IMG/VR virus record: IMGVR_UViG_3300032249_001455
Location: 1 to 64,000 of that record
Direction: 5' to 3' (one strand)
Length of the DNA: 64,000 nt
Source of the DNA: a virus
This document shows, piece after piece, positions 10,618-63,827 of this stretch (positions are counted from its first letter, which is position 1; every line of letters starts with the position of its first letter). The notes under the pieces were generated by a model that saw only the letters and a program-made list of their open reading frames with translations, was not told the DNA's origin and did no database searches. Both the position numbers and the translations under genes were made by a program.

Positions 10618-11285
10618 TGAAACTTAGTGAAATAGCCAAGGCCTACCCGACCGACAAGGATTTTACCCACAACTATTACGAGGCGGCATACGAGTCTGCT
10701 TTTAGTTCTATAAGAGAAGAGGTCAAGCTTGTCTGCGAGATAGGCATAGGGGGCTTCTGGAATGAAGTGGGGTGGGTTCACGGCAACTCCCTAAAGGTTT
10801 GGAGGGACTACTTTCCGAACGCCGACATTCTTGGATTGGACATAAAAGAATATCAGATAGAAGACCTGGGCAGAATAAGGACGGGCTGGCTGGATCAGTC
10901 CAAGAAGGATCTGGTGGTGGATTACGCGTCAAAACTGAAGGACTACGATCTGATAGTGGACGACGGATCGCACAACATATATGACCAGCAGATCACGCTG
11001 GCCTATTTTTTCAAATGCCTCAAGCCGGGGGGCATATACATACTGGAAGACCTGCACAGCAGCATAGAGGTAAATGACCTTGAGAAGGCGAAGTTCTGGG
11101 GCTGGGGAGAGGCCGGACACATAACTCCGCTCCAGATGCTGGAGCATCATATCGGCACCAAAGAAATAATCAGCGATTATTTGGATGAGGGCGAAAAACA
11201 GTATCTGGAGCAGAGCATAGACAAAATAGAGGTGTTTCACATAGGACCCACTAGCATCACATCAATAATTAGAAAGAAGATCTGA
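10617..11285 (+). CDS. TylF-like SAM-dependent O-methyltransferase
   Basis: 222 aa. Same family as the middle domain of the 866-aa protein: PTDKDFTHNYYEAAYE at the N-terminus, LVCEIGIGGF (SAM motif I), DLIVDDGSHNIYDQQ and GGIYILEDLHSS. Compared with that domain it carries a 7-9 residue loop after motif I (WNEVGWVHG). It probably methylates a sugar hydroxyl added by the neighbouring transferases. The gene is joined to neighbours by TAATG and TGATG overlaps. Confidence 0.8.
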   Translation: MKLSEIAKAYPTDKDFTHNYYEAAYESAFSSIREEVKLVCEIGIGGFWNEVGWVHGNSLKVWRDYFPNADILGLDIKEYQIEDLGRIRTGWLDQSKKDLVVDYASKLKDYDLIVDDGSHNIYDQQITLAYFFKCLKPGGIYILEDLHSSIEVNDLEKAKFWGWGEAGHITPLQMLEHHIGTKEIISDYLDEGEKQYLEQSIDKIEVFHIGPTSITSIIRKKI

Positions 11286-22877: not shown

Positions 22878-23073
22878 ACTGACGGACGACCAGATTGACG
22901 AAGTCGTTCTTTTTGAGATGAGGCGCCACTCGGAACTTTTGAAGTCCAACGTGGCCTCTCTCAAAAGAAAGAGACGCAGAGAGAAGTACGAGAACGAAGA
23001 CCTCGAGAGATTCAAAGAGATTCTGTCTGCCATGAAGGTGATGCTCGGCTACTACGGCAGTCACCTGAAGTGA
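22867..23073 (+). CDS. Small helical protein
   Basis: 68 aa, highly charged, predicted helical (KSNVASLKRKRRREKYENEDLERFKEIL). No family recognised. Overlaps the end of uvsX, so it is coupled to the recombinase. Confidence 0.6.
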   Translation: MKIELTDDQIDEVVLFEMRRHSELLKSNVASLKRKRRREKYENEDLERFKEILSAMKVMLGYYGSHLK

Positions 23074-23325
23074 TCATTTGATCTTTTTGTTCTTTTTGTT
23101 CTCGATTATCTTGTAGCCGACTTTTTCGCCTTTGTAGTTTTTGTCGCAGAGGGCCGGCACAAGCCCCTTCAGATCTAGAATTCTCTTTCTTTCTATATCT
23201 GCCTTCACCACGAACATCTCGGCGCCGAAGGCCCGGCAGTACTCCTCCAGGTGCTTGAAGTTTCCGAGCAGGGTGAAGAACCGCTTCTTGTCTCTGGTCT
23301 CCAGCATCAGGCATTTCAAAGCCAT
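23074..23325 (-). CDS. Small Lys-rich unknown protein
   Basis: 83 aa on the opposite strand, its stop abutting the end of the previous plus gene. MALKCLMLETRDKKRFFTLLG then a FKHLEEYCRAFGAEMFVVKAD segment (beta-alpha-like), ending in a Lys/Asn-rich tail. Unknown function. A 121-bp intergenic region upstream separates it from the divergent plus gene. Confidence 0.55.
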   Translation of the reverse strand: MALKCLMLETRDKKRFFTLLGNFKHLEEYCRAFGAEMFVVKADIERKRILDLKGLVPALCDKNYKGEKVGYKIIENKKNKKIK

Positions 23326-23446
23326 GAAATTTTTCTCCTATTGCGTTCAAATTAACGTTTTCTGTATGATCCGTCAATGCTTGTTTTTTGGACGAATAAT
23401 CTCGTTTATTGCGTCGCCGGATCATAAATAAGGTGAGCGAAAACAC

Positions 23447-24698: not shown

Positions 24699-27600
24699 AT
24701 GGCGCTAACAAGACTTTCCGACCAGCTCGACCTCGTCAGCACGGCAGACTTCCCGCACGGGAAGTATCCGTTTGAGAAATTCAACCGGGTGCAGAGCCGT
24801 GTTTTCGAAATCTGCGACAAGAACTGCAACTGCGTCATAGCCGCCCCCACCAGCGTGGGCAAGACGGTCTGTGCGGAACTTTTCATGAGCCACGAGGTTC
24901 GCGTCCGCGGAGGCAAGGCGATATACCTTGCTCCCCTGCGGGCCCTGGCAAAAGAGAAGATAGACGACTGGACTTCTCCGGACTCCATATTCGGCGATCT
25001 GAAGATAGCCATATGCACCGGCGACTACAGGCTCACCGAGTCCCGCATGAGGGAACTCAACGAGGCGGACATCATTGTGATGACCTCGGAGATGCTCAAC
25101 AGCCGGTGCAGGAACATGGATTCGGAGAAGAACGACTTCTTGAAGGACTGCGGCACCATCGTCGTGGACGAGTCGCACCTTCTCACGGTGCCCGGCCGTG
25201 GAGACCACCTCGAGGTCGGTCTGATGAAGTTCTCCGAGGTTGCAAGGGATCCCAGGATCGTCTTTCTTTCGGCGACGATGCCGAATGTGGATCAGATAGC
25301 GGACTGGGTGGGGTGCAGCCTCGTCAAGAAGGACACCTACCTTGTGAAGTCGGAATACAGGCCGTGTCCCCTGGACATCCACTACGAGACCTACGAGGTG
25401 TCCGAGAGCTACGAGCTGACGGAGGAATACAAGGTCTCCAAGGCCGTGGACATCGTGAGGAACTATCCCGACGACAAGTTTCTTGTTTTCGTCCACTCCA
25501 AGTCCACGGGGGAACGCGTCAAGAAAGCCCTTCAGGATGCGAAGGTAGACTGCGAATTTCATAACGCCGACCTAGACAAGGACAAGCGTCATGAGGTGGA
25601 AAAGAAATTCAAGTACGGAAAGCTGAGGGTGATAATAGCCACAAGCACATTGGCCTGGGGGTGCTACAAGCACGGCAGCAGAGTCGTGATGCAGGATGGT
25701 TCGCTCAAAGACGTCGCCGACATAGTGGTGGGCGACAAATTGCTGTGCCCCGTGAAAGACGGATTCGCCCCGAGAAAGGTCGTCAAAGAAAAGACCTTCA
25801 GATCTGACCGGGGCTATTTTGTCAAGTTGGAATGCGGCGACACCATGACCGTCTCCGAAGATCATGTTTTTCTCGCGGCGAAGGACAGGAATTCGCCCGA
25901 ATGGTGCGACGTTTCATATCTATCCCGGGGCGATTTTGTAGCCGTTCCTTCCGATTTGAAATTGTGGACTGATGAGCTTGCCGACCTTGATCGATTCTGG
26001 TATTTGGTCGGATTCGCCTTTGGAGACGGCTGTCTCGTGGACTGCGGTTTTCACGCCGATGGATCAAAAAAGGCGGTTCTTGATCTGTGCCTTGGAAAGA
26101 TGAACCGTCTTTCAAGAGAAGTTGTGAGGATGTTCTCGGAAGAGTTCAATTATGATGCCAAGGTCAAAAATGATACCAACGGCGTCCCTCATGTTTGCAC
26201 AAAGAAAAAGATAATAGTTGACAAATTTCTTGAACTCCTCCCGCTCGGCAGAAAAGACGGAAAAGACGACTTGCCTAGAGCCGTGTACCTTAATCAATTG
26301 AGGATCAAGAGCTTTTTGAGAGGCCTATTTGATGCCGACGGTGGTTCAGAAGACCACTCCAACGGCAATGTTTCTGTGGGTTTTACGAACATAAGCGAAA
26401 AGGTCGTCCATTCGGTGCGAAGTCTGCTTCTGGGATTCGGCATAAGATCTTCTTTCGGACGAAAACGCATGGTTCCTTCTGTAATAAACGGAAGGCTCCA
26501 GATTCCAGCAAGAAAATACTCCTACAGACTCAGAATTTTCGGAGTGGACAACATTCAGAAATTTGTGAATCACATTGGATTCGGATGCCCGGACAAGACG
26601 GCGAAAATATCAAAATATCTTTCTTCAAAGATCACTGACGCATCAAAGGATCTCATTCCTGCGAGGGAGTTGATCAGGGAGCATCTTGACAAAAATGGCA
26701 TGGGAGCCTCCCATTTCAAGTCGGCTACAAATTGCGACCTCTACAACAGCATCAAAACGCAGGATTGCAGAAGAGGCACCATTTTGAAGCTTATTTCTTC
26801 TGCCCGGAAAAGGACTAGACTGAACGAACTTGTGGAAAAGCCTTATTTCTGGTCTAGGATCAAGGAAATAAGAAAGTGTCGCGGCGGGTTTTTCAAGGAA
26901 ATAGAGATAGAAGACCCCCATGCTTACATTGGATGCGGTGCGATATCCCACAACTGCAATTTTCCCGCACGAAGGGTCGTCATAACGGGCGTCCACAGAG
27001 GCATGAGCGAGGTTGAGACCTACGACATATTTCAGATGGCTGGTCGTGCGGGAAGGCCGGGATACGACCCGCGGGGCGACGTCTACATTCTTCTGCCCGA
27101 CAACAATTCTGAACACCACGAGGACCGGCTCTCCTCCCCCAAGGACATAGAATCGCAGCTCCTCAGTTACTCCGGCAAGGAAGAAGACCCCCATTATAAG
27201 ACTCTCGCCTTCCACCTCGTCAGCGAGATACACCACGGCCAGATAACCACGCTTCAAGACATACACCACTGGTACGGGAAGTCCCTCGCCTATTTCCAGT
27301 ACAACGACCTGGAGGACTCCATCGTGGACAAGACGATGGAACTTCTGATGAGAGTCGGTGCAGTCAAGGAGGTCGAGGGAAAGTACGAGGTCACCTCCGT
27401 AGGCAAGGTGTCCAGCATGATGTACTACAGCCCTTTTGACGTCGCGGATCTGCGGAGGAATTTCAAGTTTCTTTTCGGCAACGGCCTGCAGAGCAACGAC
27501 ATGGCGGTCGCCCTTGCTCTCGGAAACGTGGACTCGATCAGGATGGGTTTCGTCACGAGGGCTGAAAAGGACGAGATGGAGGATTTTTCCTCCAAGGTTC

Positions 27601-28019
27601 AGAACGCCTTCGGAGGGGGCTATCTTGAATCGTCCATAAAGGGCGCATACGCCTATTACTGCCTCTTGAACGGCTATACTCTGGGTCCGTTCAACGCGAT
27701 GGCCAGGGGCCTTCAGATGGACTTTGAGAGGCAGGCGTCCGTACTCAACATGCTTGACTCCATGGCGGCCAAGTGGAACAAGCGAGACTTCTTCAGCAAC
27801 CTTTCTCTTCGTATAGCCTACGGCGTCAGACCCGAACTCATAGACCTCTGCAAGGTTCCCAATGTCGGCAAGGTTCGGGCGGAGAGGCTTTATTCCGCAG
27901 GCATAAGAAGGCCCGCAGACATGCTCAAAAACCCCCATGTCGTCAAGAAGATACTGAATATGAAGGACGATAAGGTCATGGAAATATTGAAGGCGGCCAA
28001 ATCAATTGCTTCTTCTTAA
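24699..28019 (+). CDS. Ski2/Hel308-like superfamily 2 helicase with embedded intein
   Basis: 1106-aa precursor, about 675 aa after intein removal. Helicase motifs: Walker A AAPTSVGKT (48-56), motif Ia APLRALAKEK, II VVDESHL (Asp157), III FLSATMP, IV FVHSKSTGE, V ATSTLAWG interrupted then CNFPARRVVI, VI QMAGRAGRPGYDPRG (DEVH/Ski2 type). The C-terminal part has the winged-helix/ratchet-like region and a helix-hairpin-helix-like VPNVGKVRAERLYSAGIRRPAD, as in Hel308. 3'-5' helicase acting on branched DNA, perhaps replacing T4 UvsW. The ATG follows directly on a terminator hairpin. The end overlaps the convergent Ser-rich gene by 18 bp. Confidence 0.9.
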   Translation: MALTRLSDQLDLVSTADFPHGKYPFEKFNRVQSRVFEICDKNCNCVIAAPTSVGKTVCAELFMSHEVRVRGGKAIYLAPLRALAKEKIDDWTSPDSIFGDLKIAICTGDYRLTESRMRELNEADIIVMTSEMLNSRCRNMDSEKNDFLKDCGTIVVDESHLLTVPGRGDHLEVGLMKFSEVARDPRIVFLSATMPNVDQIADWVGCSLVKKDTYLVKSEYRPCPLDIHYETYEVSESYELTEEYKVSKAVDIVRNYPDDKFLVFVHSKSTGERVKKALQDAKVDCEFHNADLDKDKRHEVEKKFKYGKLRVIIATSTLAWGCYKHGSRVVMQDGSLKDVADIVVGDKLLCPVKDGFAPRKVVKEKTFRSDRGYFVKLECGDTMTVSEDHVFLAAKDRNSPEWCDVSYLSRGDFVAVPSDLKLWTDELADLDRFWYLVGFAFGDGCLVDCGFHADGSKKAVLDLCLGKMNRLSREVVRMFSEEFNYDAKVKNDTNGVPHVCTKKKIIVDKFLELLPLGRKDGKDDLPRAVYLNQLRIKSFLRGLFDADGGSEDHSNGNVSVGFTNISEKVVHSVRSLLLGFGIRSSFGRKRMVPSVINGRLQIPARKYSYRLRIFGVDNIQKFVNHIGFGCPDKTAKISKYLSSKITDASKDLIPARELIREHLDKNGMGASHFKSATNCDLYNSIKTQDCRRGTILKLISSARKRTRLNELVEKPYFWSRIKEIRKCRGGFFKEIEIEDPHAYIGCGAISHNCNFPARRVVITGVHRGMSEVETYDIFQMAGRAGRPGYDPRGDVYILLPDNNSEHHEDRLSSPKDIESQLLSYSGKEEDPHYKTLAFHLVSEIHHGQITTLQDIHHWYGKSLAYFQYNDLEDSIVDKTMELLMRVGAVKEVEGKYEVTSVGKVSSMMYYSPFDVADLRRNFKFLFGNGLQSNDMAVALALGNVDSIRMGFVTRAEKDEMEDFSSKVQNAFGGGYLESSIKGAYAYYCLLNGYTLGPFNAMARGLQMDFERQASVLNMLDSMAAKWNKRDFFSNLSLRIAYGVRPELIDLCKVPNVGKVRAERLYSAGIRRPADMLKNPHVVKKILNMKDDKVMEILKAAKSIASS
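25662..26954 (+). mobile_element. LAGLIDADG intein in helicase motif V
   Basis: Residues 322-752 of the helicase precursor (431 aa). Begins at Cys322 (CYKHGSRVVMQDGSL, block A), has block B TVSEDHVFL, two dodecapeptide endonuclease motifs YLVGFAFGDG (435-444) and FLRGLFDADG (539-548), and ends AISHN before Cys753 (block G His-Asn with +1 Cys). All splice residues are present, so it should be active. The insertion splits STLAWG|CNFPA, the nucleic-acid-contact motif V. Its codons are somewhat more AT-rich than the host gene, as expected for a recently gained element. Confidence 0.95.
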
Positions 28020-30448: not shown

Positions 30449-31221
30449 ATAGGCCATTTTCTGCGGATTAGAAAGCCGCCGGGCTCCTTCTCCAGCCATT
30501 TTTTAAATCCTATTTTTCCTTCGCTCGTCTGCATCGCCTGTCTCTGCTGGATTCCGATGGTCTTGGGCGACTGTGATCCCATGGGCGTCGCCCTGTCCGC
30601 AGGCACGAAAAGCGGTTTGTTGTAGGTCGTATTGGGAAGCTGCTGTGGCCTTGCGAAGGAGTTCGTGTTTTTTATGTCGGCCAGCGTGGCATCAAAACTT
30701 CTGTTGGTTTTGTGGTCGTACACGCTGAATTCTATCTGGTCGTCCGGCTCCTCAATGCTTTCCTGTTCAAGTATTTCTTCTATTCCCGATGATAGCTGTC
30801 CTTTCTTGTTTGCGTCGTATCCGAAAAGTTCTATGTTGTTTGATCTGACCGCAATCCACCCTTCGTTCTTCATCACATAAAGGCGTGCGTCACCTCCACC
30901 TCCAAGAAGCTTGTAAACCTCCATGTTGATCCCGAGCTTCTTGATTATCAATTCGGCCACTTTGATCGAGGCGACTCCGCGTTCAAGGAGTGCGTAACGG
31001 ATCGCCTCTAGTAGTTCGGATGTGCTTGTGAAGGGTTCGTCGTGAATTCCCAGGTCTTCGGTGTCCAGGCCTAGTTCCTGGGCATAGTCCATGATTCTGT
31101 CTACATGGTCGGCCGCTATAGAATTCAAGGCGACCATTTCGTGGTTCTGATCTCCCACGTCGCCGTCCGCGAATTCAACTTGGCCCCCTTGAATCCAATA
31201 TTCCCCTCTGATCTTCGCCAT
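30445..31221 (-). CDS. Unknown protein
   Basis: 258 aa from the ATG at 31221, which overlaps the upstream stop as TGATG (a GTG one codon earlier is possible). Starts AKIRGEYWIQGGQVEFADGD. Contains a LLGGGGDARLYVMKNEGWIAVRSNNIELFGYD block and ends with a basic GKIGFKKWLEKEPGGFLIRR segment. No recognised family. Downstream partner of the 129-aa gene. Confidence 0.6.
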   Translation of the reverse strand: MAKIRGEYWIQGGQVEFADGDVGDQNHEMVALNSIAADHVDRIMDYAQELGLDTEDLGIHDEPFTSTSELLEAIRYALLERGVASIKVAELIIKKLGINMEVYKLLGGGGDARLYVMKNEGWIAVRSNNIELFGYDANKKGQLSSGIEEILEQESIEEPDDQIEFSVYDHKTNRSFDATLADIKNTNSFARPQQLPNTTYNKPLFVPADRATPMGSQSPKTIGIQQRQAMQTSEGKIGFKKWLEKEPGGFLIRRKWPI

Positions 31222-31610
31222 CACATGCTCCCGGGCTGGGGCTGGAAGTCCTGGGACATGAGTTTGTCAAGGTCTTCTATTCCAACGAGGAACTTCCTCT
31301 CGTCGGGAGTTCCGTCTATCTTGACGAATCCGCCTTCCCCGTCGTCCTTGTACTGTCTGTTTGTAATGGACTTGTCCGTCGTCTGCTTGACGAGAGCGTG
31401 CGTTATCTTTCCGTTATGGTCGCGCTTGAATCCAAGGACCTTGTACGGGGCTATGTTGCTTGCGGTCTTTCCGAACGAGAAGAAGCTTGCGACCTGAGGC
31501 TCGTGCTCGAGGTCGGAAGGCTTTATGCCCAGTTCGTCCCTGATCGAAGACAGGAAGGGATGCTTGTTCTCCTCCTCGCGGAGGAATTCGGAAAAAGTTT
31601 TTTCGGCCAT
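31221..31610 (-). CDS. Unknown protein with FSEFL N-terminus
   Basis: 129 aa. N-terminus MAEKTFSEFLREEENK resembles the capsid-targeting leader of T4 internal head proteins (MKTYQEFIAEA). The rest is alpha/beta with FFSFGKTASNIAPYKVLGFKRD. Divergent from the plus gene at 31652. Function unknown; a packaged protein is a hypothesis. Confidence 0.6.
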   Translation of the reverse strand: MAEKTFSEFLREEENKHPFLSSIRDELGIKPSDLEHEPQVASFFSFGKTASNIAPYKVLGFKRDHNGKITHALVKQTTDKSITNRQYKDDGEGGFVKIDGTPDERKFLVGIEDLDKLMSQDFQPQPGSM

Positions 31611-31651
31611 ACAAAAGATATATATCTGGGTCGCGATTTTTTAGGAGAAGC

Positions 31652-32044
31652 ATGGCTAGTCCGGCATTTTCAGACTTCCGAGAGCTAATGGACAGGTGGG
31701 ACGCTTCATCGCACCTGTTTTCCGAGAACGACCTGTGCATGTTCTTCAGGAAGGACGGCGTCCTGTACGGAACTACCGAGCCGGGAAGGATAACGTTCGC
31801 CCGGATGAAAAACCCCGAATCCAAGGAGGACGAGGACTGGATGAAGGACGCCACGTTCGTCGCCTACGACCTGGAGAAGACTGCCTCTGGGGAGAAGTCC
31901 ATGTCGGTCTTCGGACACAAGGAAGCGTCCAAGGCCAAGATCGTCAGTCAGGGCGACGCGGAGAAGGAGCTGAAGAAGAAGGGCAAGAGCCTTCCTGTCA
32001 TCAGCGACGATCAGGAACAGGACCGAACAATCGGCGAAAAATGA
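31652..32044 (+). CDS. Unknown acidic/Lys-rich protein
   Basis: 130 aa. FSDFRELMDRWDASSHLFSENDLCMFFRKDGVLYGTT then a Lys/Glu-rich C-terminal half. A TTTAGGAGAAG ribosome-binding site precedes the ATG. No known domain. Overlaps the next gene by 4 nt. Confidence 0.6.
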   Translation: MASPAFSDFRELMDRWDASSHLFSENDLCMFFRKDGVLYGTTEPGRITFARMKNPESKEDEDWMKDATFVAYDLEKTASGEKSMSVFGHKEASKAKIVSQGDAEKELKKKGKSLPVISDDQEQDRTIGEK

Positions 32045-55160: not shown

Positions 55161-55262
55161 ATGGCTTCAAATATAATGGCCGACGATGATTCTGAGCGGA
55201 GCGCCAAGATCGTTAGTCTTCTCAAAAAGGTCAGGGAGTGGATGGAAAGGAGTCTGAGTTGA
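55161..55262 (+). CDS. 33-residue small protein
   Basis: MASNIMADDDSERSAKIVSL then LKKVREWMERSLS. Helical and charged. Its stop overlaps the TTG start of the next gene (TTGA), and the AAGGAG site used by that gene is inside it, which supports it as a translated upstream partner. Confidence 0.5.
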   Translation: MASNIMADDDSERSAKIVSLLKKVREWMERSLS

Positions 55263-55825
55263 AAGTTTATATCGGACCCTACAAGAACTGGTGGGGACCA
55301 TACCAGATCGCCGACTTGCTGCGATACGTGGGATTTTCAAAATCCAAAACGCACCGGGTCGGCGAATGGCTCGCGGATACGCCCCTTTCGGACCTGTGCG
55401 AGTGGATACACGCCCGTCGCAAGAGAACCGTTAGGGTCGTGGTTCACGACTACGACGTATGGGGAATGGACAACACCATCGCGCTCATCGCCCTTCCTCT
55501 CCTCAAGAGACTCAAGGAGAAGAAGCATGGTTCCCCTCATGTGGACGACGAAGATGTGCCTGAGCATCTTAGGTCCACGGTCGCCAAGCCCTTGACCGAG
55601 GAGGAGGCGAAAAACGGATACTCGGACAACAACTTCCACCTGCGCTGGGAATGGGTGATTGACGAGATCATCTGGGGGTTTGAGAACATGATCGCGGACG
55701 ACGCGGGCGAGACCGAATTCCACAAGGACGGCAAGTTTGACATAGAGGCCTCTAGGAAGTTCCACGACCGAATCCAGAACGCCATGCGCCTGTTCGGCAA
55801 GTACCTTCAAGGAATGTGGCATTGA
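55259..55825 (+). CDS. Conserved T4-like-phage hypothetical protein
   Basis: 188 aa from TTG at 55259, 6 nt after AAGGAG. KVYIGPYKNWWGPYQIADLL, DTPLSDLCEWIHARRKR, VHDYDVWGMDNTLALI-type block, HGSPHVDDEDVPEHLRST and FHLRWEWVIDEIIWGFENM are hallmarks of a protein conserved in many T4-like and cyanophages, function unknown. The C-terminus ends RLFGKYLQGMWH. Confidence 0.75.
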   Translation: MKVYIGPYKNWWGPYQIADLLRYVGFSKSKTHRVGEWLADTPLSDLCEWIHARRKRTVRVVVHDYDVWGMDNTIALIALPLLKRLKEKKHGSPHVDDEDVPEHLRSTVAKPLTEEEAKNGYSDNNFHLRWEWVIDEIIWGFENMIADDAGETEFHKDGKFDIEASRKFHDRIQNAMRLFGKYLQGMWH

Positions 55826-56338: not shown

Positions 56339-56913
56339 AGACATTCAGCGAATGGGCGGGTAGCCAGCCGACAGAGGAAATGAAGTCTCTGTTTGAGAAA
56401 AGAACCCGTAGACATATTGCTCTCGTGGGCGAATTCTGTGACAGAATCGCAGAGCACGATGGCCGCTTCAAGGAACTTCTGGATAGAAAGAAATTCCACG
56501 ACGACAGCAAGTTCAAGGAGCCGGAGTACACCCCTTACCTGTTCGTGACTTGGAAGTACAAATGCAGGAAGGACGGCGAGGAATTCAAGGTTCCGAAGGA
56601 GATAGAGGACAGGATGCACGAGGCCACCCTCCACCATGTCACCACCAACTCCCACCACCCCGAGTACCACAGCCCGAGGAAGGACGGCCTCATCAACAAG
56701 GAGAACAGGGACGCGCCCCCAGAGGAGATCGTGGATGCCACAAGCATGCCCGAACTCGACATCGCCGAGATGTGTGCCGACTGGATGGCAATGTCCAAGG
56801 AACTCGGCAGCAACCCCAAGGACTGGGCCGACAAGAATGTCAATGTGAGGTGGAAGTTCACAGAAGGACAGAAAAAACTGATCTACGACATCATCGGGGA
56901 GTGCTGGGAATGA
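56335..56913 (+). CDS. DUF5662-like protein
   Basis: 192 aa from ATG at 56335. RHIALVGEFCDRIAEHD, FHDDSKFKEPEYTPY, HHVTTNSHHPEYHS and LDIAEMCADWMAMSKE follow the DUF5662 pattern (HD.SKF, NDHHPEY, DW.A), a helical protein with several conserved His, likely metal-binding, unknown function. The N-terminus KTFSEWAGSQP again has the F.EW leader-like motif. ATGA overlaps on both sides. Confidence 0.7.
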   Translation: MKTFSEWAGSQPTEEMKSLFEKRTRRHIALVGEFCDRIAEHDGRFKELLDRKKFHDDSKFKEPEYTPYLFVTWKYKCRKDGEEFKVPKEIEDRMHEATLHHVTTNSHHPEYHSPRKDGLINKENRDAPPEEIVDATSMPELDIAEMCADWMAMSKELGSNPKDWADKNVNVRWKFTEGQKKLIYDIIGECWE

Positions 56914-57230
56914 GCCGATACTATTTCAAGGAGCCGAAAAAGGGTCTGTATCCCACTGAGGGGCTTTCCCTGAAGCTCTACAGGCTCCTCACGGAGAAGG
57001 GAAAGGACATGAAGAGGTCGGGCACCTTTTCAAAAGATGCCTGGACACAATATGTCATTTCTTTGGGGTGCGAATTCACAGATGAAACCTTTGTTCTGGA
57101 TTCAGAAAGGGAAATCATATTCCGCGACGAACATCATTTCACCCAGTTGAAGGACAGCAAGGCGTGGGACAGGCTGATAAAGGTTGATTTTGAAACCGCC
57201 ATGAGGATCGCCACCCTAGGGCTGCCGTGA
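56910..57230 (+). CDS. Array paralogue 1 (KLY/YL/LGxP family)
   Basis: 106 aa. LSLKLYRLLTEKGKDM, DAWTQYVISLGCEF and the end VDFETAMRIATLGLP give all three landmarks of the tandem family. ATGA overlap with the DUF5662 gene. Separated from the main array by the split gene and three tiny membrane genes, so it marks the left outlier of the array. Confidence 0.75.
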   Translation: MSRYYFKEPKKGLYPTEGLSLKLYRLLTEKGKDMKRSGTFSKDAWTQYVISLGCEFTDETFVLDSEREIIFRDEHHFTQLKDSKAWDRLIKVDFETAMRIATLGLP

Positions 57231-57239
57231 GGAAATAAC

Positions 57240-57335
57240 ATGATTAATGCCATAAAAGTTCTCTTCCTGATTGTCTTCCACTTGGGGGTCGCCATGTTCG
57301 CCGACGACGTTTTGGGCTTGTTTCGTTTCGTTTGA
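57240..57335 (+). CDS. 31-residue membrane peptide
   Basis: MINAIKVLFLIVFHLGVAMF then ADDVLGLFRFV: one hydrophobic segment. Its TGA overlaps the ATG of the split gene (TGATG), arguing for translation. Confidence 0.45.
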   Translation: MINAIKVLFLIVFHLGVAMFADDVLGLFRFV

Positions 57336-57385
57336 TGTTCGCAGAAAAACCCCAGACGTTGAAGGCGCCCGACGACGTCATTTAT
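57335..57385 (+). pseudogene. 5' part of a gene split by the second hairpin element
   Basis: 17 codons MFAEKPQTLKAPDDVIY up to TTTAT. In the present sequence the frame reads on into the element and stops at 57442. Removing 57386-57549 joins it in frame to YSNGASGTVES in the downstream part, giving a 156-aa protein. Confidence 0.65.
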
Positions 57386-57549
57386 ACGCCTCCCGCCCAG
57401 AAAACCCAGTCCCCTTTAGGGGCTGGGATGAATGGCGGTTAACTGTGTAAAAAATAAAAATTAACACTATAGTAAGTATGAGATTCGGGACGGAATCTTT
57501 GTACTTCGGTACTAGAAGCCGACTCCCTTTAGGGGGTCGGAGCGTTCAC
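57386..57549 (+). mobile_element. Hairpin element copy 2
   Basis: 164 bp, after TTTAT, no target duplication. Same nested left hairpins and right-end hairpins as copy 1; the right 89 bp (57461-57549) are identical and the left part differs by small indels (extra C; GTGTAAAAA in place of AAA). Contains ATG at 57478, which puts 24 element-encoded residues (MRFGTESLYFGTRSRLPLGG, RSVH) in frame with the downstream gene part. Both copies have the same orientation. Confidence 0.7.
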
Positions 57550-57969
57550 TACTCAAACGGCGCTTCAGGCACGGTGGAGTCCATACACATAGGAGGGCGA
57601 ACCGAGGTCGTCAAGGTGACGGGGGTCAGGCTGACCAAGCACTCCGGGTATTGCAACAAGACAAAATGGGGAAGGGAGACATGCCTGTGGAGGCTTGACG
57701 CCGACATAGAACAACCCGAGGGGAGGAAGAACTACTTCGCTCCCCATCTAGACGGCATGGTGGACGTGAAGCAGAAATCCGGCCAACTAACCGAGCACGG
57801 GGAACGCCCTTGGGATGCTCTGACCAACATGTGCGTGGGCTGGGACCAGTTGAGATACGCAAACATCGTCTTCAAGGACGACAAACCAGTTTCTTTACAT
57901 TTCACTCATCTGAAGTACAATGGGGAAAAGTGGATTGAAATTGCAAGTTTTGAGGCCGATTTCAAATGA
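57478..57969 (+). CDS. 3' part of the second split gene, fused to element-encoded start
   Basis: 163 aa as it stands: 24 residues from the element, then YSNGASGTVESIHIGGRTEV and a beta-rich domain with CNKTKWGRETCLWRLDADIE, ending EIASFEADFK. The original N-terminus is MFAEKPQTL at 57335. A rare case where an inserted end supplies a new start codon in frame. Function unknown. Overlaps the next gene by ATGA. Confidence 0.6.
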   Translation: MRFGTESLYFGTRSRLPLGGRSVHYSNGASGTVESIHIGGRTEVVKVTGVRLTKHSGYCNKTKWGRETCLWRLDADIEQPEGRKNYFAPHLDGMVDVKQKSGQLTEHGERPWDALTNMCVGWDQLRYANIVFKDDKPVSLHFTHLKYNGEKWIEIASFEADFK

Positions 57970-58094
57970 TTTCACAAGAATCTCTAAATTATTGGCTTGT
58001 CATCGTTGTGGCCTACTTGTATTTTTATTCTTGGGTCACCGCCTTCAGGCTCAGGGCGATACTCAAGAAAATAGAGAAAATGGAAGAGTACTGA
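57966..58094 (+). CDS. 42-residue single-pass membrane protein
   Basis: MISQESLNYWLVIVVAYLYF then YSWVTAFRLRAILKKIEKMEEY: one transmembrane segment and a basic amphipathic tail. ATGA overlap with the upstream gene supports it. Confidence 0.55.
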   Translation: MISQESLNYWLVIVVAYLYFYSWVTAFRLRAILKKIEKMEEY

Positions 58095-58096
58095 TA

Positions 58097-58252
58097 ATGG
58101 AATCTGCAAGGGAATTCGCGGCGGCTTTCGTCCTAGCCATGGGATTCGCCATGGCTTTCATGTTGGTTGCCACCCCGGTTATTATCTTTTTGACTTGGGC
58201 GCTCCACAGGCTTTTCCCGTCCCCGGACACGGACGACCCGGGTCCGAAGTGA
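58097..58252 (+). CDS. 51-residue membrane protein
   Basis: MESAREFAAAFVLAMGFAMA, FMLVATPVIIFLTWALHRLF, then an acidic/Pro tail. One long or two short hydrophobic segments. Starts 2 bp after the previous stop; the upstream extension of its frame is a shadow. Confidence 0.55.
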   Translation: MESAREFAAAFVLAMGFAMAFMLVATPVIIFLTWALHRLFPSPDTDDPGPK

Positions 58253-58298
58253 AAAGTCTTCGAAAAAACCCGCACCCGGAAGCCAAATGGAGAGAAGG

Positions 58299-58655
58299 AT
58301 GAACGCGACGCCGAATATGACGAACGAGCAGAAGACAGAAAAACTGTACGGAATTTTCAGGAACAAACTGGACGAAATAAGGAACAACGCCCGCGTGGGC
58401 CACTCATTCAAAACGCTGGACGCCGACACCGTGAGGAGATATGACAACATCGGTGCCATAATCTCGGACAAAATCGAGGAGTACCTCTCCGAGCAAGGGC
58501 CCCATGTGAGAAGCCTTCACGCCGACAATCTGGTGCATCTCATCAATGAGGGTCCGTTGGACGCGGTTGCGATACGAAACCACGTGAATTACGACAATAT
58601 CATCGTGATTGAAAGGGAATACGCCGAGAAGATACTTGTGCTGGGACTGCCATGA
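58299..58655 (+). CDS. Array paralogue 2
   Basis: 118 aa from ATG at 58299 (GGAGAGAAGG upstream; ATG at 58287 also possible). TEKLYGIFRNKLDEIR at the N-terminus and IVIEREYAEKILVLGLP at the C-terminus; the central W..YL block is changed to IEEYLSEQGP. First gene of eleven consecutive family members. Confidence 0.75.
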   Translation: MNATPNMTNEQKTEKLYGIFRNKLDEIRNNARVGHSFKTLDADTVRRYDNIGAIISDKIEEYLSEQGPHVRSLHADNLVHLINEGPLDAVAIRNHVNYDNIIVIEREYAEKILVLGLP

Positions 58656-58990
58656 ACGAAGCCGCTGAATTCAACGATGATCGCGGGTGGCATTCGCTCT
58701 TGGGCGGCCGTCGAGCCCCCGACCCCTTCTTGGGCAACGGCCCCATCCACGACCGATTCCAGAATTTTTTGTACGACCAGCACGACCTCGCGAATATTCA
58801 ATTGAAAGAATGGGGCGAATTAGCCTTCAGGAGAAGGATGGAGAAAGCGGGAGCCAGATTTATTCTTCCCGTCGCTAGTCCATGGTCTTCTAAAAAGCCC
58901 AGTGATTGGGTTTTTGATTCTCCCTTTGGCGGATATCTGGTCATAGACAGGGAAGCCGCCGAGAAGATATTGGTTTTAGGCCTGCCATGA
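58652..58990 (+). CDS. Array paralogue 3
   Basis: 112 aa. HDRFQNFLYDQHDLANI N-terminal helix, central LKEWGELAFRRRMEKAGARF, C-terminal VIDREAAEKILVLGLP, whose last 12 residues are nearly the same as paralogue 2. ATGA coupling on both sides. The N-terminal 30 residues (NEAAEFNDDRGWHSLLGGRR) are unique to this member. Confidence 0.75.
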   Translation: MNEAAEFNDDRGWHSLLGGRRAPDPFLGNGPIHDRFQNFLYDQHDLANIQLKEWGELAFRRRMEKAGARFILPVASPWSSKKPSDWVFDSPFGGYLVIDREAAEKILVLGLP

Positions 58991-59310
58991 GAGATCTTTT
59001 TGAAATCGTGAAGGCCGCAAATCAACATCCCCACCACGATGACCCGAGGAAGATGAAGGTCTATGACATTCTTCAAAGAAAGTATACAGACTGCTTTGAA
59101 AACAAAGAGATAAAACAATCAATCAATTTTGACTATTTGGGTCTCGCCAAGGCAAAGATGAAGTGGCATGAATATCTCAAGTCGCTCGGAATGACTTTCA
59201 ACAAGAATGACGGCATCTTTGACCCCTCGTGTCATCTGGAGTGGCAACAAAGGTATATTCAAATTCCCGAAGACATGATGGACAAGATACTGACACTGGG
59301 TCTGCCATGA
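58987..59310 (+). CDS. Array paralogue 4
   Basis: 107 aa. MKVYDILQRKYTDCF, AKMKWHEYLKSLGMTFN, IQIPEDMMDKILTLGLP. All three landmarks. ATGA coupling on both sides. Confidence 0.8.
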   Translation: MRDLFEIVKAANQHPHHDDPRKMKVYDILQRKYTDCFENKEIKQSINFDYLGLAKAKMKWHEYLKSLGMTFNKNDGIFDPSCHLEWQQRYIQIPEDMMDKILTLGLP

Positions 59311-59555
59311 ACCAAGAAAAGGCCAATCTGATTGAAAATCTTCTCGTTCTTAAATATGATCGGGACTTCTACATGACGACGAAATCATGGGAAGATTATA
59401 TACATTCCATCGGCTGTTCTTTCAGTCCCATAGTCGTGGAGCGCTATGAGGCATATGATCCCGACGTATTAGGGCAGGCGAGCGGAGTGGTGCGTAAAAT
59501 ATACATCCCGTTAGAGATCGGTCTCAAGGTCTTGACTCTCGGAGGTTTCCCGTGA
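59307..59555 (+). CDS. Array paralogue 5
   Basis: 82 aa, the shortest member. ENLLVLKYDRDFYMTTKSWEDYIHSIGCSF then IYIPLEIGLKVLTLGGFP. The codons for LGGFP (CTC GGA GGT TTC CCG) supply GGAGG to the GTG start of the next gene. Confidence 0.8.
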   Translation: MNQEKANLIENLLVLKYDRDFYMTTKSWEDYIHSIGCSFSPIVVERYEAYDPDVLGQASGVVRKIYIPLEIGLKVLTLGGFP

Positions 59556-59842
59556 ATCTTTCGTACGAGACAAAGAAGAAACTGAACGAGATGCTGTGGA
59601 AAAGGTACTTTGAAAAGAGTCGTGGCGAGATTTGGAGTCCGGACAGAAGCGAGTGGAAAGAATACCTGTTCAGTTTGGGCTGTGTTTTGGGAGTAGAGGG
59701 GAATGGGTGGCGACACATGGCTCCTCCGCCCAACAAGATTGAGGGAACCGTGGTGCTTAATGACCCGGCAGACTCGCTCCATGGAGTGGCCTTTCCCAAC
59801 GAGGTTATTACAAGAGTCTTGATTCTCGGAGGTTTCCCGTGA
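59552..59842 (+). CDS. Array paralogue 6
   Basis: 96 aa, GTG start. KKKLNEMLWKRYFEKS, RSEWKEYLFSLGCVLG, VAFPNEVITRVLILGGFP. GTGA overlaps at both ends, with GGAGG inside the LGGFP codons. Confidence 0.8.
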   Translation: MNLSYETKKKLNEMLWKRYFEKSRGEIWSPDRSEWKEYLFSLGCVLGVEGNGWRHMAPPPNKIEGTVVLNDPADSLHGVAFPNEVITRVLILGGFP

Positions 59843-59886
59843 AAAACAAAATCTACCGCATCTGGGGCTTCTGTCATGGATTATGA
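59839..59886 (+). CDS. 15-codon coupling ORF or relic
   Basis: GTGA-coupled start then KNKIYRIWGFCHGL and stop, overlapping the ATG of the next paralogue by 11 bp. The KNKIYRI start looks like the N-terminal landmark of the family, so this may be the frameshifted old N-terminus of paralogue 7. Confidence 0.35.
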   Translation: MKNKIYRIWGFCHGL

Positions 59887-60181
59887 GAAAATTGCCCGCG
59901 CCTTCAAGGAGTTGGCGTATAGGGCGAATGGCCTCCGGTTGGAGAGCTCCGAAGCCGGCGAGACCTTCACCTGGGTGGGCGACGGGCTTCCTCAAAAATG
60001 GAAGAGTCTCAAGGAGCTGGAAGTTTACTTTGAAGGCGTGGGTGGCAAGGTAACACCGTACGCCGAAAAAAGAGAAGGCTACCTTGTTGTGAACATAAGT
60101 GAGGACGAATGGATGCCGCAAGTTTTAGAAGTCCCCATGGAATTCGCCATGAAGGTCCTGACGCTAGGAGGATTCCCGTGA
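59876..60181 (+). CDS. Array paralogue 7
   Basis: 101 aa. MDYEKIARAFKELAYRANGL start, no W..YL but SLKELEVYFEGVGGKV in its place, end LEVPMEFAMKVLTLGGFP. The divergent N-terminal half fits replacement after a frameshift (see the ORF at 59839). Confidence 0.75.
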   Translation: MDYEKIARAFKELAYRANGLRLESSEAGETFTWVGDGLPQKWKSLKELEVYFEGVGGKVTPYAEKREGYLVVNISEDEWMPQVLEVPMEFAMKVLTLGGFP

Positions 60182-60501
60182 AGTGGGACAAGGAATCGCT
60201 TGAGAAGGTGACTACGATCCTTGCCGACCTCCCGCTGGAGAAGTGGCGCGAATTCAGCCAGGAAATGGACGCACGGGACGCAATTACATCCTCTTGGGCG
60301 GCGACGGTCTGGCCCTGTCCCGTCGGAACCGCGCACATAAGCCAGGGGCATGACCCCAAGCCAGCATACCTGAAGTTGACAAACAAAGTCGTGATAAGGA
60401 ATCCGTTCCCGCACCACCACTTTGTGATAGCCACCACTCCCTACATCGAGGTGGATGCCGACATGGCGATGAAGGTCCTCGTATTGGGAGGTGTCCCTTG
60501 A
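60178..60501 (+). CDS. Array paralogue 8
   Basis: 107 aa, GTG start. ESLEKVTTILADLPLEKWREFSQEMDARD, later FVIATTPYIEVDADMAMKVLVLGGVP. The centre is more divergent with a Pro/His-rich insert (NPFPHHHF). TTGA coupling downstream. Confidence 0.75.
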   Translation: MKWDKESLEKVTTILADLPLEKWREFSQEMDARDAITSSWAATVWPCPVGTAHISQGHDPKPAYLKLTNKVVIRNPFPHHHFVIATTPYIEVDADMAMKVLVLGGVP

Positions 60502-60773
60502 AATTAGACTCCGATCAGTACTTCAAGCTCGCCCAGCTCCTAAATGACAAGTACAATCGCGACTTCTGGATGGACGACGAGGCGTGGAAGAAATACTTGA
60601 CTTCATTCGGCGGCGCCAGGATGGACACGAACAACCCCCGCATAAAGACGATCTTTTTTCAGACGCTCAATGACCCCGTCGTCGTTCTGGTGGACCCCAA
60701 CGACCTTGACTGTGTCTTGGCTATTCCCGACGAGATCGCCTTGAAGGCATTGGCGCTGGGCTGTTTCGCATGA
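60498..60773 (+). CDS. Array paralogue 9
   Basis: 91 aa, TTG start overlapping the upstream stop, with GGGAGGTG just before it. YFKLAQLLNDKYNRDFWMDD, EAWKKYLTSFGGARM, LAIPDEIALKALALGCFA. The terminal Pro is replaced by Ala. Confidence 0.8.
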   Translation: MKLDSDQYFKLAQLLNDKYNRDFWMDDEAWKKYLTSFGGARMDTNNPRIKTIFFQTLNDPVVVLVDPNDLDCVLAIPDEIALKALALGCFA

Positions 60774-61138
60774 TGCTTGACACGGACAAGTTGTACCTCC
60801 TCCTTAACGACAAGTGGCTTGAGGTAGGTCTTCTTTGGCGCAGCGCCTTCCGGCGGCAGATCGGTCTCGACGGTTCTCCGGCCCGCCGCACGACCCACGG
60901 ACACGCCGAACGAAATCTGTGGGACGAATACCTGCGGGAGATGAACATAGTCCACCCCGCAGTAGAAGTTCATTTTCTCGGAAGGGAGACCGAACACTAC
61001 TTCGTCGAGAACCCGTCGGGGAAGGGGGGTTCAAGGGACATCTGGAAGTTGGGCATCCCCAAGGAGCTCGCCATGAAGGCCATTATTCTCGGATACTTCC
61101 CCGACAGCCCCTCGCTGGAACGCCTGAGGAACTCATGA
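60770..61138 (+). CDS. Array paralogue 10
   Basis: 122 aa. DKLYLLLNDKWLEV, NLWDEYLREMNIVHP, LGIPKELAMKAIILGYFP followed by a C-terminal tail DSPSLERLRNS. First of three members sharing the LGY(F/L)PDSPS.(+)M/L tail. Confidence 0.85.
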   Translation: MMLDTDKLYLLLNDKWLEVGLLWRSAFRRQIGLDGSPARRTTHGHAERNLWDEYLREMNIVHPAVEVHFLGRETEHYFVENPSGKGGSRDIWKLGIPKELAMKAIILGYFPDSPSLERLRNS

Positions 61139-61524
61139 AGCGAAATTTCAAGATGGGGAAGGGCGAAAAGGACGCGACCCAGAAGATATACAAACTGCTT
61201 GACGACAGACTTTTGCGGATATCTGACGAGATATACGAGGAAAGCGACCCGGCCGAATCTAGCAAGTTAAGCATGGTTAAAATAGAGAAATTCTTTCAGC
61301 TGGAGTCCGCTTGGACGGCGTACCTTGAAGGATTGGGTCTCAAGAGGACAATGTGTTCGCACAAGGACTGGCGGCGCGAGGTCTCGATAGACAACTGCAG
61401 AATCAGCGACCCTCTCTGTGTCAGTATGTTCATCGATGTTCCAAAGGAACTAGCCCTGAAAGTCCTTGTTCTCGGATACCTTCCCGACAGCCCTTCAATC
61501 AAGAAGATGATTCAACCCGCATGA
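61135..61524 (+). CDS. Array paralogue 11
   Basis: 129 aa. QKIYKLLDDRLLRISDEIYE, SAWTAYLEGLGLKR, IDVPKELALKVLVLGYLP then DSPSIKKMIQPA. ATGA coupling on both sides. Closest to paralogues 10 and 12. Confidence 0.85.
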   Translation: MKRNFKMGKGEKDATQKIYKLLDDRLLRISDEIYEESDPAESSKLSMVKIEKFFQLESAWTAYLEGLGLKRTMCSHKDWRREVSIDNCRISDPLCVSMFIDVPKELALKVLVLGYLPDSPSIKKMIQPA

Positions 61525-61913
61525 CAAAAGACAAAATTTACCACCTGCTCAACGAAAAACTCTTCAACATCGCCGATTTGCACTATCAAAACGCCGGCGC
61601 GGAATGGAGGACCGTAGAAAACAAAGAACTTTGGGAAACCTACCTAAAAGAGATGGGCATGGTCTTATTCGTACGATCAGGGTGGTTCAAGGAGAACGAT
61701 ATGGAGGACGAAATCGAGAACCTCTCCTTCTCGGACCTCCAAGGCCAGAAAGTTGACATTGAATGGATCAAAGAAAACCTTATAATAATCCAGGATCCGC
61801 TTGCGCAGTACCATAGAGTTGGCATCCCCAAGGAACTGGCCATGAGCGCCATGACCCTCGGATATTTCCCCGACAGCCCTTCAATTCAAAAGATGCGAGA
61901 ACGCAATGAATAG
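61521..61913 (+). CDS. Array paralogue 12
   Basis: 130 aa. DKIYHLLNEKLFNIADLHYQ, ELWETYLKEMGMVLFV, VGIPKELAMSAMTLGYFP then DSPSIQKMRERNE. Overlaps the next gene by 8 bp. Carries an acidic insert (ENDMEDEIENLSFSDLQG) before the C-terminal block. Confidence 0.85.
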   Translation: MTKDKIYHLLNEKLFNIADLHYQNAGAEWRTVENKELWETYLKEMGMVLFVRSGWFKENDMEDEIENLSFSDLQGQKVDIEWIKENLIIIQDPLAQYHRVGIPKELAMSAMTLGYFPDSPSIQKMRERNE

Positions 61914-62244
61914 CGAATCAATCAAGACCGAAGCTGCCCTCTTCATATTTTATATTTTTGTCGGACTGGTTCTTTTTCTTGTTGGTTGTATAGGCTTGTA
62001 TTTTGCTTTAAAGAGACAGCCGTCAAACCGAGAGACGCAGGTCTGTTCCGGTTGCGGTGCCGAATGGACTACACTCCACAAAGATCGGTTTTGGAAGCCT
62101 TCGGCCCCCATTACTCGTTGCCCGGAGTGCCCTATGACGGAAGAGGAGTTCGAGAAACTTAAGGAACAGGTTCGGCGAGGAGATAAGCCGGATCTGAAGA
62201 ATTTGCCGTCAATTACCCACCCCCTAAAGGGAGTGGGCTTGTAA
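61906..62244 (+). CDS. Membrane-anchored zinc-ribbon-like protein
   Basis: 112 aa. Transmembrane segment AALFIFYIFVGLVLFLVGCI, then CSGCGAEWTT...CPECPM (four Cys) and helix EEEFEKLKEQVRRG. Same layout as the protein at 53648. The last codons (ITHPLKGVGL) lie within a hairpin CCCACCCCC-TAAA-GGGAGTGGG, so its C-terminus may come from an inserted sequence. Confidence 0.6.
   Translation: MNSESIKTEAALFIFYIFVGLVLFLVGCIGLYFALKRQPSNRETQVCSGCGAEWTTLHKDRFWKPSAPITRCPECPMTEEEFEKLKEQVRRGDKPDLKNLPSITHPLKGVGL
62212..62235 (-). repeat. Hairpin resembling an IS200/IS605-type end, reverse orientation
   Basis: On the minus strand the sequence reads AAGCCCACTCCC-TTTA-GGGGGTGGG then TAATTGAC. It has the same AAGCC-stem-CTTTAG-stem layout as the right ends of the two hairpin elements, but a different stem and a TTGAC tip. 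A 90-bp non-coding gap follows, ending in AATTGACAC. Could be a solo end or a relic. Confidence 0.35.
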
Positions 62245-62334
62245 ATCACCGGAGCCTTCTCCACAGTGTCTACTATAAGCCAATTGACACATGGCTCGTT
62301 CCTCAACAGCTTGCCGTTTCCTTGCCGAATTCAG

Positions 62335-62667
62335 ATGAACACTGACACTGCCATCTTGGAAACCAAGTTGTACGGTCTTCTGCTCAAGAAGTCGGAGGAA
62401 ATCTGCAGAAATAACTCGGCTAGGTGTCCGGCCTTCTGGACTCCTTCAATCATACATAAGTGGGCGGAATATCTTGAGGGCATTGGATGCTTAAAAATAG
62501 ATATCGTCCGTCCGCGGCGAGGGTGGAGCCATGCGAAGTACGCGAAATCCAAGGCCCCCGAAGGGACGCAGTGCATCGTGAACCCGGCGAATCTGGGCTT
62601 CCACAGCTTCGTTATCATCCCAAACGATCTTGCCCTGAAGGCTCTCGCCTTGGGAGGGTTCCCGTGA
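62335..62667 (+). CDS. Array paralogue 13
   Basis: 110 aa from ATG at 62335 (MNTDTAILETKLYGLLLKK); an upstream frame extension has no ribosome-binding site. HKWAEYLEGIGCLKID centre, VIIPNDLALKALALGGFP end with GGGAGGG inside the LGGFP codons before the next GTG. Confidence 0.85.
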   Translation: MNTDTAILETKLYGLLLKKSEEICRNNSARCPAFWTPSIIHKWAEYLEGIGCLKIDIVRPRRGWSHAKYAKSKAPEGTQCIVNPANLGFHSFVIIPNDLALKALALGGFP

Positions 62668-63053
62668 GGGACAAAGTCTTCAAGCTCATCCTCTGCAGGA
62701 TTCAAGAAATGTCCACCTGGTACAGCAGGAACTTCAACTTCCACGACAGGGCTAAAATAGATGAATGGCCGTGCAGCCAATACTCCATGATCCAGAACTA
62801 CCTGGAGGAGATCGGATGCTCCCAAGTCCGATGCCCCAAGGAGGTCTTTTTGGAACTGAAGTACAGCCCCGGCGGCCGCAGGACCGCAGAACTCCTGAAC
62901 ATTAGCGAAGGGAAATTCTTCCTTTTGGCTCATCCTTGGGAGTCCACGACTCTAATCCTCATTCCGTACGAACTGGGCGTGAAGGCTGCCGCGCTCGGCG
63001 AGTTCCCAATCGGGCCAAAAACGTCTAGAATGCTCGGTCAGGGATTGAAATGA
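62664..63053 (+). CDS. Array paralogue 14
   Basis: 129 aa, GTG start. DKVFKLILCRIQEMSTWYSR, SMIQNYLEEIGCSQV, ILIPYELGVKAAALGEFP followed by a tail IGPKTSRMLGQGLK. Last member of the array. Confidence 0.8.
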   Translation: MRDKVFKLILCRIQEMSTWYSRNFNFHDRAKIDEWPCSQYSMIQNYLEEIGCSQVRCPKEVFLELKYSPGGRRTAELLNISEGKFFLLAHPWESTTLILIPYELGVKAAALGEFPIGPKTSRMLGQGLK

Positions 63054-63352
63054 TGTACCGTTTGTTCCTAGACGACATGAGAAACCCGCCCGACGAAGAT
63101 TGGATCGTCTGTCGGTCTACACAGGAAGCGGTGGAAATCATCAAGGAAAAAGGAATCCCCGACTTCATGAGCCTTGACCACGACCTTGGCGGAGAGGACA
63201 CGACCATGGTCTTCCTCAAAAGGCTCGTGGATGAAATCTGGGACGGCCAGTCCAAACCGCCCAAGTACCAAGTCCACAGCGCGAACCCGATAGGGACGCA
63301 GAATATAATCTCGTATATGGAATCTTGGATCAAATCAACTGGAGGCAAATGA
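63050..63352 (+). CDS. Cyclic-phosphate-processing receiver-domain protein
   Basis: 100 aa. YRLFLDDMRNPPDEDWIVCRS at the N-terminus, PDFMSLDHDLGGEDT, and HSANPIGTQNIISYM at the end. These are the signature of the cyclic-phosphate processing receiver (cREC) family, thought to act on 2',3'-cyclic phosphate RNA ends or related nucleotides. An RNA ligase at 49.7 kb would be a natural partner. ATGATG start overlaps the array's last stop. Confidence 0.7.
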   Translation: MMYRLFLDDMRNPPDEDWIVCRSTQEAVEIIKEKGIPDFMSLDHDLGGEDTTMVFLKRLVDEIWDGQSKPPKYQVHSANPIGTQNIISYMESWIKSTGGK

Positions 63353-63678: not shown

Positions 63679-63827
63679 ACGGTGAAAAAGAATTGAAGAA
63701 CCTGAAGTCTTTGGTCAGGAGTTTCCTGAAGGAGATAGAATATGTCCCGATGCGAGCCGTAGACTGCGACCAGGACGAGATTGAAAGACTGATGGCGCAA
63801 CTCGCCGAGGCGGCTAAAGAGAGATGA
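63675..63827 (+). CDS. 50-residue helical protein
   Basis: MNGEKELKNLKSLVRSFLKE, then IEYVPMRAVDCDQDEIERLMAQLAEAAKER. ATGA overlaps upstream and downstream. Unknown. Confidence 0.55.
   Translation: MNGEKELKNLKSLVRSFLKEIEYVPMRAVDCDQDEIERLMAQLAEAAKER

Follow-up and report, generated by a model that had tools for sequence, protein, structure and literature searches.

A variable array of small paralogous genes sharing one predicted fold in a freshwater bacterial virus, a possible repertoire of host-directed binding proteins

Why does a freshwater bacterial virus carry one small gene family many times over in tandem? For the majority of phage genes no function has been assigned, and proteins that counter host defences have typically been discovered singly. 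The locus lies in IMG/VR record IMGVR_UViG_3300032249_001455 (73.4 kb; G000 below), whose first 64,000 nucleotides are the window, i.e., the whole stretch of DNA presented here. A first-pass annotation had proposed fourteen paralogous ORFs of 82 to 130 codons. All fourteen are real, lie on the + strand, and their starts were right, but the array was undercounted: a fifteenth member sits at the window edge, and an iterated profile search found 27 members in the whole record (56910 to 72726), 12 of which (members 16 to 27) occupy its final 9 kb, beyond the window. Array copy numbers are lower bounds, as the record stops 0.7 kb past the last member; contigs G012 and G004 stop just short of the expected array position.

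Leave-one-out HMMs (built from the other 13 proteins; Z=1000) recovered every one of the fourteen, and in no case did any of 200 shuffles score as high as the true protein. By this comparison, the fourteen proteins are homologous beyond chance. Member 1 (56910..57230, 106 aa, E 1e-9) has an orthologue, G002_38200, in an independent phage, G002. The eleven genes starting from 58299 to 61521 are contiguous, as had been described, and most overlap their neighbor by 4 nt. They comprise member 2 (58299..58655, 118 aa, E 1e-8); member 3, the most divergent and the most weakly recovered (58652..58990, 112 aa, E 0.0047; orthologue G002_27699, dN/dS 0.21); member 4 (58987..59310, 107 aa, E 4e-10; G002_28013, dN/dS 0.20); member 5, the shortest (59307..59555, 82 aa, E 6e-9; G002_25003); member 6 (59552..59842, 96 aa, GTG start, E 3e-11); member 7 (59876..60181, 101 aa, E 2e-7); member 8 (60178..60501, 107 aa, GTG start, E 6e-7); member 9 (60498..60773, 91 aa, TTG start, E 2e-11); and three proteins with a C-terminal PDSPS tail, namely member 10 (60770..61138, 122 aa, E 9e-9; G002_28614, dN/dS 0.29), member 11 (61135..61524, 129 aa, E 6e-21, the strongest value) and member 12 (61521..61913, 130 aa, E 3e-13; G002_29268, dN/dS 0.17). 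Member 13 (62335..62667, 110 aa, E 5e-13) and member 14 (62664..63053, 129 aa, GTG start, E 2e-7; G002_27102, dN/dS 0.27) follow. Member 15 (63824..64159 of the record, 111 aa; G002_29716, dN/dS 0.15) crosses the window edge at 64000; its profile E value was 9e-7 with the 14-member model and 3e-17 after iteration. Members 16 to 27 start at 64156, 64473, 64769, 65162, 65458, 65733, 69398, 69697, 70330, 71736, 72050, and 72397. Between members 6 and 7, a 15-codon GTG frame (59839..59886, + strand; MKNKIYRIWGFCHGL-stop) opens in the 4-nt overlap and, as read from the sequence, bears the N-terminal K(I)Y landmark; it is possibly the remnant of a lost family member.

The three ordered landmarks on which the family had been proposed are looser than claimed, although the homology itself stands. 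The W..Y block is not clear in 58652 and 60178, and the C-terminal signature has no (I/V)P in 56910, 58299, 58652, and 60178. The signature also has a second face. The DNA encoding LGGFP-stop reads as a GGAGG-like ribosome-binding site 5 to 6 nt ahead of the next gene's start codon, which overlaps the stop of the preceding member, and the signature Gly codon is GGA or GGG in 46/69 cases there versus 196/401 elsewhere. The C-terminal signature is thus, in part, a DNA-level constraint. In its extreme form, this would mean that there is no protein family at all, the common C-terminus being nothing but translated ribosome-binding sites and the remainder chance. That reading has next to no probability left, and for the family taken together the data refute it. 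With the C-terminal landmark deleted, 10 members still gave E < 0.03, above their own shuffles, and 58299 gave E 0.066; 58652, 59876, and 60178, of the 14 members tested, did not reach significance. Furthermore, members without a coupled downstream gene (e.g., 56910 and 72397) still keep the signature, and separate alignments yield one predicted topology. Member 60178 is the least certain of the set.

AlphaFold2 predicted a compact α-α-β-α-β-β-α protein from the whole-family alignment (member 9, 60498; pLDDT 91) and a matching seven-element topology from a six-member subfamily alone (member 2, 58299; pLDDT 82), so that a common fold exists in predicted form. Conserved positions are nearly all structural; the only strongly conserved polar ones are K/R10, E/D79, and K/R83, and charge is free to differ from member to member. 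No convincing structural neighbor of these models was found. The top Foldseek rows were winged-helix MarR proteins, at E 0.33 or worse (VIA Z 3.6 at most), and these are the one indication that the members might be DNA- or RNA-binding regulators, each for another promoter. We consider this rather improbable: the TM-scores were below 0.36 with rmsd mostly about 10 or more, the order of helices in the models is unlike that of a winged helix, and member net charges from -9 to +9 (pI 4.5 to 10.5) imply no common basic face. Two further VIA matches, a designed protein (Z 4.1) and a Trypanosoma brucei microtubule doublet protein (Z 5.4), fall inside the tool's stated noise range and were set aside.

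That no described family would be recognized was borne out. Searches of Pfam-A with 14 members, and of NCBIfam and PHROGs with 57, returned isolated hits only, none recurring in more than one member; the best PDB sequence match had E 0.5, and tblastn of two members against GenBank phages reached E 0.3 at best. The 595-kb LR756511.1 held no sequence relative of the family. The exact C-terminal DNA pattern, a search of low sensitivity, was found in none of 84,980 bacterial and archaeal genomes, and further scans of viral contigs returned the same array phages. In six relatives, HMM searches at relaxed settings yielded no score exceeding reversed-sequence controls. A partial match in G046 (E 0.002) and a match in G017 (E 0.006) were taken as chance, and a 20.8-kb contig (L142) was rejected as it has the DNA pattern yet no profile match. 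Rfam gave nothing credible on 54001-73428. A promoter scan yielded 22 sites versus 13.6 (sd 4.1) in shuffles and no clear promoter for the array. A literature search, with subscription journals mostly outside its reach, found no account of such an array.

Three phages carry the array with members clustered and in variable number: 27 in G000, 33 in G002 (32 in the count of clustered members), and 19 in G030. Together with the common predicted fold, this variation is what the first-pass annotation had named as support. A 381-kb relative has a single distant copy, whereas none was found in some 60 further contigs that carry a related phage gene, many of which are fragments. G000 and G030 are close relatives, with core proteins 86 to 96% identical, yet they share only four clear orthologous array members (71 to 88% identical). 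In G002, the array lies at a different location and in a different orientation, and 9 of 13 G000/G002 array pairs have pS values of 0.42 to 0.66 versus 0.69 to 0.84 for core genes. The synonymous divergence of array members is thus younger than that of the core in the more distant phage, indicating that segments were exchanged. Comparison of these arrays shows that related phages have lost, replaced, and exchanged segments; in at least one instance, it appears, the recombination took place within a gene, at its conserved 3′ end.

Such turnover bears on two alternatives. The first, already raised in the first-pass annotation, is that the members are subunits of one hetero-oligomer (a virion part, scaffold, or intracellular shell), with coupled translation aiding joint assembly. 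A single predicted fold, a single operon, and about four lineages common to all three phages (the 69398, 58299, 71736, and 72397 types) are consistent with this. However, number and content differ by phage, close relatives share few orthologues, and PHROGs has no virion family matching the array proteins; an assembly is therefore a poor fit and unlikely. Receptor diversity, proposed alongside it, gained no positive support, with no virion or surface link seen. The second alternative is that the array expanded in a largely neutral or selfish way, its cassettes spreading and decaying through recombination and transposition while bringing the phage little advantage. Cassette turnover, tail exchange, the possible decayed stub at 59839, and a TnpB with IS605-like hairpins inside the array would all suit it. 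Against it, reading frames are nearly all intact, and dN/dS was 0.10 to 0.29 for every orthologue pair with estimable dS, which places the orthologues under purifying selection and makes this alternative quite improbable. The same values give no support to the ongoing diversifying selection suggested earlier; the spread among paralogues reflects old divergence.

At roughly even odds (about 0.5), we favor the view that the array is a repertoire open to exchange, whose small proteins would bind host factors and so serve host takeover or counter-defence, the most likely functional class. At least 27 mostly translationally coupled genes each encode one small single-domain protein of the same, so far unmatched, predicted fold; they make up an accessory module of variable content, parts of which are traded between related phages. 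The proteins would act by binding and not by catalysis; produced jointly in the infected cell, each would have a host factor of its own, be it a defence protein or an enzyme of transcription, translation, or nucleic acids. Counted in favor of this reading are the homology of all members, their common predicted topology, conservation confined to structural positions, the turnover and exchange of array content, the constraint on each orthologue, and the accessory type of the neighboring genes. No member resembles a characterized anti-defence protein. An arms race should leave site-wise positive selection; none was seen at gene level among orthologue pairs, and this was counted against the repertoire reading.

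A precedent, also counted in its favor, comes from T4-like phages, which respond to defence pressure by tandem amplification of genes that counter the defence, as with tifA against ToxIN and SegB-driven amplification (PMC9391042, PMC13096335). Both cases involve small phage genes in tandem copies arising through recombination. In contrast, T4 copies are recent and segmental, whereas the array copies are old and diverged: among near-full-length paralogues of the record, no two are more than 52% identical. A recent amplification of the T4 type was rejected, as there are no near-identical copies and duplications mostly predate the split of the phages. In African swine fever virus (ASFV), several members of multigene families MGF110, MGF360, and MGF505 are reported to counter host defences (PMC9327683, PMC9599437). 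Both systems have runs of diverged paralogues clustered in one region of a large DNA virus, with content varying among close relatives. The proteins and hosts are unrelated, and here the genes form a phage operon with overlapping genes.

A more specific version of the repertoire, which we offer only tentatively, would have 20 to 30 exchangeable single-domain binders of a new fold, each neutralizing a different host factor and shuffled at ribosome-binding 3′ ends so that any member stays expressible; by analogy, the array might then be a bacteriophage counterpart of eukaryotic-virus multigene families. The dual role of the 3′ end suggests how cassettes could remain plug-in compatible. If correct, an operon of exchangeable genes that uses one fold 19 to 33 times would offer a ready panel for finding host targets and defences, and a phage would build a repertoire through paralogy, as large eukaryotic viruses do.

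Accessory regions of tailed phages, with their host-takeover, anti-defence, and moron genes, usually mix unrelated genes. The array resembles them in its small exchangeable genes of unassigned function adjoining accessory-type neighbors (RNA ligase, C5-methylase, cREC, and phosphoesterase) and differs in that one family supplies 19 to 33 of the genes. An argument from this neighborhood is weak because genes of these kinds are common in large phages. One further neighbor, a phrog_11543 gene of unassigned function (55238..55825, + strand; PHROG E 6e-34), is found close to the array or within it in each of the three phages that carry one, its orthologues being at 46.8 kb in G030 and 19.9 kb in G002.

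All 14 small genes listed in the first-pass annotation are real and correctly placed in the linear, 73,428-base virus record (G000), of which the window covers bases 1-64000. The genome is of the tailed-phage type, with genes for a family A DNA polymerase, a DnaB-like helicase, UvsX and RNA ligase besides structural-type genes. A 14-member HMM matched the record's + strand at 26 places, and iteration gave 27 array genes (56910-72726), including a 15th member that starts at 63824 and runs across the window edge. Array copy numbers are lower bounds, and start codons outside overlaps were chosen.

Since the members are only 15-27% identical to the first one, whether they constitute a single family is a fair question. 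The homology proposed earlier withstood leave-one-out HMM searches, in which every member was recovered with E values of 0.0047 to 6e-21, above 200 shuffles. With the C-terminal landmark deleted, 10 of the 14 kept E < 0.03 and 58299 scored 0.066; 58652, 59876 and 60178 fell below significance. Structure prediction for 60498 from a 57-member alignment (pLDDT 91.2, pTM 0.79) gave H5-23 H27-36 E40-43 H47-56 E61-65 E72-77 H78-87. For 58299, only six members of one subfamily were aligned (pLDDT 82, pTM 0.72), giving H9-33 H42-65 E70-73 H76-84 E89-93 E101-105 H106-115; the two alignments have four rows in common, and the 58299 prediction used its own six only. Compared by element order rather than superposition, the seven predicted elements match in kind and order. 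Thus neither refuting outcome named earlier, unrelated folds or a likeness limited to the last 10 residues, was observed.

The conserved columns (60498 numbering: K/R10, L11, W30, Y33, L34, G38, P67, P77, E/D79, A81, K/R83, L85, L87, G88, L/F90, P91) look structural, with no evident catalytic set; member pI spans 4.5-10.5. Pfam, NCBIfam and PHROGs gave no match recurring among members, PDB sequences none to the family, and Foldseek against PDB and BFVD nothing with E < 0.001. VIA structural neighbours had Z <= 5.4. Such a lack of structural matches does not prove a new fold.

Of the 79 + strand members, 68 terminate in NTGA, with a start codon overlapping the stop, and this start is the next member's in 42 of them. 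In 47, the LG..P motif is the exact end of the protein, and the codons of its LGGFP version yield GGAGG ~6 nt upstream of the start, which is a standard ribosome-binding site. This C-terminal signature therefore seems to do double duty, as protein signature and ribosome-binding site, which helps explain its sharpness and leaves the protein homology standing.

The diversifying selection suggested earlier is not supported by dN/dS of 0.10-0.29 in all orthologue pairs with estimable dS (pairwise Nei-Gojobori, rough at such distances). By these sequence comparisons the members are constrained and functional; positive selection may act at a few sites.

Contigs G001, G002 and G003 of IMG/VR represent one phage (100% identity across 30 kb) with 32 members in one array and another, on the opposite strand, at a different site. 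The third array phage, G030, has 19 members, and the 381-kb relative G011 carries a single distant copy (E 5.8e-7). About 60 other contigs with a related dehydrogenase gene, many of them fragments, held no members; two partial, marginal matches among them were taken as chance. The related contigs G012 and G004 end at the expected array start. No array is present in the AT-rich sisters G007 and G009, though their sequence runs tens of kb beyond the syntenic gene; hence the expansion seems limited to one sub-lineage, as far as collection scans dependent on conserved patterns reveal.

Core proteins of G000 and G030 are 86-96% identical, and clear G030 orthologues exist only for 70330, 71736, 72050 and 72397 (71-88% identical); that of 69398 is 39% identical. 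Between G000 and G002, whose core is more distant, core genes (63-93% protein identity) have pS of 0.69-0.84, synonymous differences being near saturation, yet 9 of 13 array pairs have pS of 0.42-0.66, under every core gene tested. Flanked in G002 by the neighbours of G000 genes 32118 and 33783, the array is inverted there versus the core. Most simply read, array segments move between these phages. In the member tree, genes from the three phages are fully intermixed (40 label changes versus a shuffled mean of 36); most duplications thus seem to predate the phage split, many forks being unresolved. A PDSPS tail occurs on G002_28957 and its neighbours and not on the orthologue G000_69398, likely through recombination inside the conserved 3' end. 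Frame 59839-59886 (MKNKIYRIWGFCHGL) resembles the remnant of a member that was lost. In G002, two members (22860-23420 and 30924-31838) are in-frame fusions with a protein that has a membrane-type segment; for the latter, the fusion partner occurs in G000 as a stand-alone gene (12688-12906 of L007, the later part of the record).

This turnover of content disfavours a fixed assembly of array members, one of the roles guessed earlier. A stable scaffold with free surfaces, present in many versions per genome, under constraint and differing in content between close relatives, would fit a repertoire of binders, each version with a different partner. The array neighbours (RNA ligase, C5-methylase, cREC, a weak HAD-type match and a phosphoesterase-like gene) are of an accessory, host-directed kind. 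T4-like phages under defence pressure tandemly amplify counter-defence genes (PMC9391042, PMC13096335), and by analogy such amplification is a plausible origin of these arrays. We give a host-directed role, in takeover or counter-defence, roughly even odds.

Next to or inside the array, all three array phages have the phosphoesterase-like gene (record 70695-71342) as well as a phrog_11543 gene (55238-55825). A cREC_REC gene (cyclic-phosphate processing receiver, PF20274, E 5e-23; 63050-63352) lies between members. Palindromes of CCCTTTAGGG type (57402-57421, 57513-57540, 62209-62242; L007 14132-14165 and 14147-15298) that also occur in the flank of a TnpB (OrfB_IS605) gene inside the array resemble the ends of IS605-type elements, of which three lack a TnpB gene. 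A 26-nt inverted repeat, 96% complementary (L007 15652-15677/19026-19051; record 69652-69677/73026-73051), has its arms in the 3' part of 69398 and in a tail-type gene that lies at the record end and carries TNTPTATSTP repeats. In G020, a related AT-rich phage, four small proteins (120837-122571; L160, L161) with a conserved C-terminus ITGFPSSSLFDL form a different tandem family. They lie near the gene whose syntenic counterpart in G000 comes before the array region, and may represent a second family that has expanded at this genomic location.

Elsewhere, glycosyltransferase and methyltransferase-type genes form a block (6987-14508) that is mostly present in G012 and absent where synteny would place it in G002 and G004. 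The helicase gene (24699-28019) contains an in-frame insertion of ~1.3 kb (25662-26954), absent from that of G012, G030 and G002. With its starting Cys, LAGLIDADG-like GFAFGDG and LRGLFDADG, and terminal HN then Cys, it reads as an intein.
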